From an uncultured Clostridium sp. (GTDB lineage: Bacteria > Bacillota > Clostridia > Lachnospirales > Lachnospiraceae), in the NCBI GenBank assembly GCA_945915475.1, contig CAMEFI010000024.1, positions 1 to 44,973 of the forward strand: a stretch of DNA of 44,973 bases. Reading direction: 5' to 3'. Below the pieces are notes generated by a model. That model ran no database searches. It was not told the DNA's origin and was given only the letters and a program-made list of their open reading frames with translations. The position numbers and the translations under genes are program-made. This document shows, in pieces, positions 13,384-14,156 of the stretch (the stretch's first letter is position 1; every line of letters begins with the position of its first letter).

Positions 13384-13444
13384 AGATTTGATTTCATCTT
13401 TTTTCTGTAAAATGTGAATAAATATATCTCTTTTTTATCATACT

Positions 13445-13455
13445 ACCATATATCA
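13445..13455 (+). repeat. Target-site duplication, left copy
   Basis: ACCATATATCA directly abuts the left terminal inverted repeat. The identical copy abuts the right end at 13665-13675. Confidence 0.8.
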
Positions 13456-13664
13456 TAGGCAATTGCGAAACTCTTGAAAATGCATATTGAGTTGTGCAGA
13501 TTTGACAAGTATCCTAAGCAGGTGCTTTGAGACCGCCGGTACTTAACGAGTGTGAAACACGAGTTTAGTACCGCTGCGAGGCGAGAGCAGCGCAAGCGTG
13601 CCTGTGAGGATATTGTCAAATTGCACAACGTTTATAGAAGAAACAGGCGTTTCGCAAACGCCTA
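13456..13664. mobile_element. MITE-like palindromic element with TIRs and 11-bp target duplication
   Basis: A 209-bp element fills most of the 13384-13694 gap. Its ends are 16-bp inverted repeats: TAGGCAATTGCGAAAC at 13456-13471 and the complement of TAGGCGTTTGCGAAAC at 13649-13664 (14 of 16 match). It is bounded on both sides by a perfect 11-bp direct repeat, ACCATATATCA (13445-13455 and 13665-13675), as expected of a target-site duplication. Inside is a long imperfect stem (13491-13629). It has no transposase gene and would need one in trans. I cannot assign a family; 11-bp duplications are known from IS4/IS231-type elements (knowledge), but I have no further match. Confidence 0.8.
13491..13629. 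repeat. Long internal imperfect hairpin of the MITE-like element
   Basis: GTTGTGCAGATTTGACAA at 13491-13508 pairs with TTGTCAAATTGCACAAC at 13613-13629 with one bulged base; pairing continues through TATCCT/AGGATA and CAGG/CCTG. A second stem, GGTACT with AGTACC around 13538-13572, closes the apex. Transcribed either way it would fold into a stable RNA about 139 nt long. Whether it is a functional RNA is not known. Confidence 0.7.
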
Positions 13665-13675
13665 ACCATATATCA
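13665..13675 (+). repeat. Target-site duplication, right copy
   Basis: ACCATATATCA directly follows the right terminal inverted repeat and is identical to 13445-13455. It ends only 19 nt before the small spore-coat-like gene. Confidence 0.8.
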
Positions 13676-13694
13676 ATAGAAAAGGAGATAGAAA

Positions 13695-13880
13695 ATGAGT
13701 AATTTATCAGAAAAAGAATTATCTACATTGAATGATTGCTTATCCGAAGAAGAACTGCTGGTTAAGAAATTTAAAATGCTGGCAAGTCATGCAACCGATG
13801 CGACTGTCAGAAGAGAAATGGAAGAGATTTCTATGAGACATCAGTCACATTTTAACAAATTATATAATCATTTAAACTAG
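13695..13880 (+). CDS. Small spore-coat/ferritin-like helical protein
   Basis: 61 residues, two predicted helices (LSEEELLVKKFKMLASHATDATVRREMEEISMRHQSHFNKLYNHL). The pattern EELLVKK...A..ATD...R...E.I..RHQ.HF..L resembles small ferritin-like proteins found beside CotF genes in clostridia. RBS AAAGGAG sits before the ATG. The gene following, 9 nt on, is CotF-like, so both may be spore-coat components; expression in the mother cell is inference. The MITE-like insertion 30 nt upstream leaves little native promoter space. Confidence 0.75.
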   Translation: MSNLSEKELSTLNDCLSEEELLVKKFKMLASHATDATVRREMEEISMRHQSHFNKLYNHLN

Positions 13881-13889
13881 GAGGCAATC

Positions 13890-14156
13890 ATGGAATTATA
13901 TAAAGAAAAAGAAATTTTAGGTGATGCATTAGCTGCACAAAAGTCAGCAACCAATCTGTTTAACATGTCTTCCAATGAATGTGTTCACGAGGGGCTTCGT
14001 TCCACCATGTTAGACATCCTTGCCGACGAACATACTATGCAGCAGGATGTATTCTATTCTATGCATGAGAGAGGATTCTATCCGACTCCCGATGCAGAAC
14101 AAAACAAGATTGATGAGGCGAAACAAAAGTATTCCCCTTCTTTTAAGCCATTATAA
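13890..14156 (+). CDS. CotF-family spore coat protein
   Basis: 88 residues matching the Coat F domain: ILGDALAAQKSATNLFNMSSNECVHEGLR, then LDILADEHTMQQDVFYSMHERGFYPTPDAEQNKIDEAKQKY. The domain is a ferritin-like helical pair seen in Bacillus CotF and in many clostridial paralogues; it is a spore coat component in Bacillus. AGGAGG is followed by ATG after the preceding small gene's stop. Ends 30 nt before a terminator hairpin. Supports a spore-forming host. Confidence 0.88.
   Translation: MELYKEKEILGDALAAQKSATNLFNMSSNECVHEGLRSTMLDILADEHTMQQDVFYSMHERGFYPTPDAEQNKIDEAKQKYSPSFKPL

Follow-up and report, generated by a model that had tools for sequence, protein, structure and literature searches.

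To our knowledge, few transposons insert beside a general expression signal. The Mutator-like TnGBS, ISLre2 and ISKra4 elements are described as inserting upstream of sigma-A promoters, mostly in one orientation, with TnGBS/ISLre2 insertions lying 15-17 bp upstream of the sigma-A -35 box and generating duplications of 8-9 bp (PMC3942029, in the passages drawn on here). For IS1272, replacement of inverted-repeat targets has been reported (PMC5678879, likewise in the passages drawn on). Correia, RUP and MITEAba12 elements are short, with terminal inverted repeats (TIRs), a duplication and a hairpin, and Correia elements are often found upstream of genes (PMC10969869, PMC3049150 and PMC6382973, in part). 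That a MITE is driven by a DDE-type insertion sequence (IS) is already known; the apparently new aspect of the element described below is a target at a fixed distance from the Shine-Dalgarno sequence, for which we found no report in a search of freely accessible papers. This fixed distance is also the main feature that goes beyond an earlier note on the same DNA. Its probable mover is a transposase for which the Shine-Dalgarno signal serves as the landing mark, so that the element comes to rest immediately ahead of genes and leaves them intact.

The element at the coat-gene locus and its copies

The window, by which we mean the whole stretch of 44,973 nucleotides that was analysed, contains a 209-bp MITE at 13456..13664 (+ strand). 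Its 16-bp TIRs are TAGGCAATTGCGAAAC on the left (13456..13471, +) and TAGGCGTTTGCGAAAC on the right (13649..13664, −, given as the reverse complement of these positions), and by direct reading they agree at 14/16 positions. Immediately outside lie the gene-distal (13445..13455) and gene-proximal (13665..13675) copies of the target-site duplication ACCATATATCA, neither assigned to a strand, which are identical at 11/11 positions. An internal hairpin of 139 nt spans 13491..13629 (+) with the arms GTTGTGCAG...TTGCACAAC, and the DNA folding energy of positions 13440-13690 is -51.1 kcal/mol as against -25.8 (sd 3.3) in 200 shuffles, a z of -7.7. The earlier note had described an element of this length with these TIRs, a perfect 11-bp flanking duplication and a hairpin of about 139 nt, all of which we recovered. 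Only one open reading frame (ORF) of at least 60 aa, 61 aa long, lies over the element, so the MITE encodes no transposase.

On its right side the element faces a gene at close range. A 7-nt spacer (13676..13682, +), the spacing common to most copies, leads from the duplication to AGGAG (13683-13687), the Shine-Dalgarno sequence of a 61-aa ORF at 13695..13880 (+), which is the first gene 3' of the insertion. The motif GAAAAGGAG (13679..13687, +; consensus RRAAAGGAG) includes this Shine-Dalgarno sequence. The element had been placed 30 nt upstream of spore-coat genes: the distance is right, since 30 nt separate the element end at 13664 from the ATG at 13695, and the next ORF encodes an 88-aa Coat_F-domain protein (13890..14156, +; PF07875, E 7e-19), whereas the 61-aa ORF itself matches no Pfam family at E 0.001. 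Matches to the latter were found by tblastn in 24/24 loci compared. Directly upstream of the target site lies CATACT (13439..13444, +), a -10-like box that is also present at an element-free locus in a relative (L220) and in some other species, and which is a putative promoter element.

At least 35 full-length copies, 88-100% identical, are present in the same genome (3.09 Mb, 81 contigs), a lower bound because scoring covered 40 of the 94 candidates from a first look; two of the copies are identical over 209 bp, and there are six partial match rows, four at contig ends. Flanks differ among the copies and most copies have direct repeats of their own. Because it recurs in different flanks, the MITE is not a chance product. 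A TIR pattern allowing up to two mismatches matched 76 + 78 times, compared with 10 + 12 for a reversed control. TIR pairs in the same genome also enclose other lengths (577, 524, 260, 205 and 58 bp at L071, L072, L077, L078 and L079, respectively), the shortest being hardly more than both TIR ends, which points to several non-autonomous forms with common ends. Matches to the MITE at E <= 1e-5 occur in 21/60 genomes (its own included), all of the same genus, and searches with the interior alone identified TIR-bounded copies in two further genera (L247 and L261).

An empty site was found in G016, the closest relative as compared by coat protein (95%). Its leader (L220) reads catact-ACCAAATATCA-atagaaaaaggag with no element, and at this one locus the single target copy ACCAAATATCA differs from the duplication at one base of 11. 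The DUF885 gene that lies upstream was not found in the stretch examined around L220. Copies with the same TIRs in different flanks and an empty site with a single target copy were the checks suggested in the earlier note, and both are now in hand; together with the duplications and an IS with the same TIRs (below), they support its proposal that the repeat is a non-autonomous transposable element.

One genome (G008) has an element of the same kind within the same coat-gene leader (L229), and TIR-like remnants can be seen by eye in this leader in further relatives (L221, L223 and L224), so that the leader seems to have been hit repeatedly. At L014 (G000:C29:18421-18652) the flanks have no matching repeat and a Shine-Dalgarno-like motif is faced on both sides; this copy is perhaps the product of recombination between two copies.

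The probable partner insertion sequence and its transposase

The probable partner of the MITE is a 1.75-kb IS in another, well-assembled genome of the same genus (G002; L100:524-2276). Two perfect TIRs bound its 1753 bp, which contain one long ORF for a DDE-type transposase of 491 aa. The left end of the MITE is the counterpart of the right end of the IS and the right end that of the left, the final 19 bp of the MITE, GGCGTTTCGCAAACGCCTA, matching the left end of L100 base for base. On these common ends, the MITE would be mobilised in trans by its partner.

Against Pfam, the transposase scored 51.4 bits for DUF772 (PF05598), above the cut-off, and 22.3 bits for DDE_Tnp_1_6 (PF13751), below the cut-off of 25.1. 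The NCBIfam model transpos_IS1182 matched 31/31 transposases scanned, giving the L100 protein 77.5 bits against a family cut-off of 270. Residues D147, D288 and E433 are invariant in the 31 aligned transposases, as are Y426, R429, E433 and K440; we take the former to be the catalytic triad and the latter the Y(2)R(3)E(6)K signature of the IS1182 type. We regard the partner transposase as divergent and only distantly IS1182-like. A comparison with solved structures returned a single match at E 0.3, and phage records returned none.

Relatives of the transposase, some of them fragments, occur in 8/26 genomes of the genus (E <= 1e-10) and in 36/397 genomes of family f1 (E <= 1e-40), which we take to be Lachnospiraceae because the contig of G002 is the same as SVEQ01000002.1, from a MAG of that family. 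The best 80 of 83 matches gave 78 named loci, most of them titled Lachnospiraceae or genera of this family; among these best matches, the titles of some others go no further than Clostridia or Eubacteriales, and Bacteroidales, Clostridiaceae and Oscillospiraceae appear once each. Six plasmid records contain a match, with full-length copies in two (Butyrivibrio proteoclasticus B316 and Roseburia sp. 831b). The relative in B. proteoclasticus is on plasmid pCY360 (NC_014389.1). The genome that carries the MITE yielded no relative at E <= 1e-10; its own source of transposase is missing, lost or unassembled, and two of its MITE copies are nonetheless identical throughout. An ISLre2/TnGBS source was considered and rejected, since PF06782 is present in 6/26 genomes of the genus and such a TIR pair in 0/9 of its loci; the Pfam hits of the partner, DUF772 and the weak DDE match, are likewise not those of a UPF0236-type transposase.

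Two loci (L116 and L285) are tandem, with an IS end, then the same target repeat, directly adjoining another IS copy. Distant relatives of the transposase at L134 and L139 (∼50% identity) have related but different TIRs, TAGGTAATTGTTAAAT-like, and by eye these two seemingly insert 4 rather than 7 nt before AGGAG.

Target site, orientation and proposed mechanism

Target sites were compared at loci that have both a TIR pair and a duplication. This retained 49 of 110 loci, the rest having no TIR pair, a decayed duplication or none, a contig end within the locus or a duplicate elsewhere in the set; the tandem insertion L116 was then dropped, leaving 48 sites. Six of the 35 full-length copies failed this filter and are outside the count (L014, L015, L021, L027, L030 and L035). 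Duplication length varies from 9 to 14 bp over the 49 sites (9 bp at one, 10 at 10, 11 at 12, 12 at 18, 13 at 5 and 14 at 3). Yet 7 nt usually separate the gene-proximal edge of the duplication from AGGAG, positions 5 to 12 past this edge reading G/A-A-A-A-G-G-A-G over the 48 sites. Information at positions 8-10 is 1.46, 1.75 and 1.85 bits, position 9 being G in 46 of the 48 and position 10 in 47, and at 40/48 a suitably spaced start codon opens an ORF of 25 aa or more. Some sites deviate (L023, L024 and L026), having AGGAGG at +4 and thus the core 3 nt nearer, and L045 has no clear motif.

These data bear on whether the promoter could be the target, with insertion directed to the -10 region or melted start in the manner of TnGBS/ISLre2 and the Shine-Dalgarno sequence merely nearby. 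By eye, several duplications do contain TATAAT-like sequence, and CATACT stands directly before the duplication at the window locus. However, sites aligned on the gene-distal edge show no position above 0.40 bits between 6 nt outside that edge and 9 nt inside it, in contrast to the values at proximal positions 8-10, and it is the distance to AGGAG that is constant while the distal edge varies. This constancy displaced -10 targeting as the primary reading, and we now consider it very unlikely.

For an independent test, a motif matrix trained only on the 33 sites in the MITE's own genome was run on the 78 autonomous IS loci, of which 33 have no TIR pair and 23 no duplication, leaving 22 usable copies with duplications of 10-13 bp. 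In 18/22 of these copies, all from other species, the best motif on either side fell at the trained offset (P ∼3e-24 for a uniform null over 66 positions, a null that ignores the richness of leaders in Shine-Dalgarno sequences); in the others it lay 3 nt nearer (L169 and L182), 1 nt farther (L154) or elsewhere (L164). The result does not require a duplication, as the best motif was 12-17 nt away at 47/56 IS left ends compared with 9/51 right ends. Insertion is targeted at a motif that overlaps the Shine-Dalgarno sequence, and this targeting, rather than any tie to spore-coat genes, is why the element lies 30 nt upstream of them.

Selection is probably also at work. Of 175 background hits to the motif (score >= 8) around the IS loci, 95 are within ORFs, as against 0/47 motif-bearing left ends (P 5e-14), and of 17 strong hits in the window 10 are inside ORFs, 6 at a Shine-Dalgarno sequence and 1 elsewhere; at a low threshold, 52/893 window hits are at a Shine-Dalgarno sequence. 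Random or merely AT-biased insertion, with selection keeping the copies that spare genes, could account for such an imbalance, but it cannot yield a fixed 7-nt offset together with a variable opposite edge or a purine tract beyond the Shine-Dalgarno core, and it is contradicted by the offset in the independent IS set. We judge this explanation extremely unlikely.

How the motif is recognised can be approached by comparing insertion sites with ordinary genes. With strict AGGAG, three purines precede it at 22/23 insertion sites compared with 10/43 control genes (P 7e-9), the 43 controls having been purged of element carriers, as an earlier set of 78 was not. A G following AGGAG is rarer at insertions (3/23 versus 16/43, P 0.048). 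Insertions thus favour one distinct class among Shine-Dalgarno sequences, in keeping with direct reading of DNA, and it is probably the DNA motif RRAAAGGAG that is read. The target might instead be chosen through the ribosome, the mRNA or the 3' end of 16S rRNA, whose complement the motif resembles. Most insertion sites are indeed translation starts, and among the 47 motif-bearing left ends (a further 9 of the 56 have a weak motif) 33 are start-linked and 14 are not, a ratio that exceeds the 36:44 of background hits outside ORFs at score >= 8 (P 0.009). Yet it does not differ from the 12:6 of strong background motifs outside ORFs (P 0.77), and the G that is depleted after AGGAG is one that would extend anti-Shine-Dalgarno pairing. 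Recognition via the translation machinery thus seems highly improbable. Direct reading of DNA with loss of intragenic insertions may suffice to explain the sites; transcription or translation may in addition bias insertion towards genuine starts.

Orientation distinguishes the IS from the MITE. The left end of the IS points towards the gene in 21/22 copies, the exception (L164) having no clear motif, whereas MITEs are unbiased, at 16:16 in their own genome and 5:3 elsewhere (IS 21:1 versus MITE 16:16, Fisher P 0.0003). Asymmetry of the TIRs alone was rejected as the cause, because MITEs keep one end of each type and are unbiased all the same. The bias of the IS must accordingly come from subterminal sequence or from selection against the opposite orientation of an IS, which contains a gene.

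Very probably, then, the MITE is mobilised in trans by a divergent IS1182-like DDE transposase that reads RRAAAGGAG and makes a fixed gene-proximal cut and a variable second cut. As deduced from how the elements are built, the transposase would bind the TIRs in trans and pair the ends, and it or a target complex would bind the ∼9-bp RRAAAGGAG in target DNA, overlapping the Shine-Dalgarno sequence. The attack on one strand would be fixed in position, in most cases 7 nt ahead of AGGAG; on the other strand it would fall a further 9-14 nt upstream, and repair would produce the variable duplication. The element would land in the 5' leader, leaving the Shine-Dalgarno sequence and the reading frame intact, from which a gene-sparing advantage may arise. 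At the window locus, insertion between the CATACT box and the Shine-Dalgarno sequence would cause the MITE to be transcribed within the coat-gene leader.

If a DDE transposase does recognise a Shine-Dalgarno motif, it would have a way to a harmless site beside nearly any gene. It would also open to experiment the way in which a transposase reads a 9-bp target and makes one fixed and one variable cut, and such an enzyme could be of use for placing DNA in 5' leaders. With dozens of copies in the leaders of one genome, effects on expression are possible.

The structured interior and comparison with known systems

The interior of the MITE is a covarying three-way junction. When 24 elements of the genus are compared, standard pairs fill 97.6% of pair cells in the 139-nt hairpin and both partners have changed in 28/52 pairs, more than in any of 500 shuffles, compared with at most 10 pairs and at most 46.9% paired in slid controls. 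Related sequences may surpass shuffles even if they form no structure; the slid controls speak against this here, albeit for a structure drawn from the very alignment on which it was assessed. Two adjacent G-U pairs persist in 19/23 and 21/24 sequences, a pattern more in keeping with RNA than with duplex DNA.

A structured core (model R1; 13509..13613, +) is also found without these TIRs in other genera, where by eye the outer stems are unrelated in sequence but complementary at 8/11 loci. In an alignment of 13 core sequences, 30/45 pairs are compensatory. A BLAST query of the core matched 53/397 genomes of the family, and its covariance model 65/392 genomes of the order, 65/65 of them in f1. 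The core could be located in 11/30 covariance-model loci, with TIR-like ends on both sides in 3, on one side in 1 and on neither in 7. It is multi-copy in many f1 genomes, often lacking the TIRs (loci include L244, L249, L252, L253, L263, L266, L267 and L272). Rfam matched neither the element nor the core, whether in the window or at eight further loci. A leader RNA is one possibility for the core.

Strong covariation and a core that occurs without the TIRs could mean that we are dealing chiefly with a structured RNA or regulatory leader in dispersed copies, to which the TIRs are incidental. Against this, the TIRs, the duplications, the empty site and the same-ended IS indicate that the whole 209-bp unit moves, making this account quite unlikely as an alternative to transposition. 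It does not exclude transposition, however, since a core carried within a MITE may still serve some function independently. A wider idea, that evolution has led a whole transposon family to use the Shine-Dalgarno sequence as its mark of safe sites and that MITEs have thereby spread a conserved structured RNA leader, a regulatory element for 5' UTRs, throughout the genome, is speculative and on balance doubtful.

REP, BIME and REPIN palindromes are dispersed, structured intergenic repeats, and as such they resemble the inner core. The unit described here differs from them in its 209-bp extent with TIRs, target duplications and ends common to a DDE-type IS. Correia, RUP and MITEAba12 elements are similar to it in build, and the parts of PMC10969869, PMC3049150 and PMC6382973 drawn on describe no Shine-Dalgarno target at fixed distance. 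TnGBS, ISLre2 and ISKra4, as far as the cited passages describe them, differ from the partner IS in transposase family, in their anchor at the -35 box and in their shorter duplications. The closest likeness in the transposase itself is to the IS1182 family, which includes IS1272, through the transpos_IS1182 matches and the DUF772 domain, although the first partner member scores 77.5 bits where the family cut-off is 270. The target replacement of IS1272 is not seen here: instead, duplications of 9-14 bp lie beside a Shine-Dalgarno motif, and the empty site at L220 shows that the element was added to its target.
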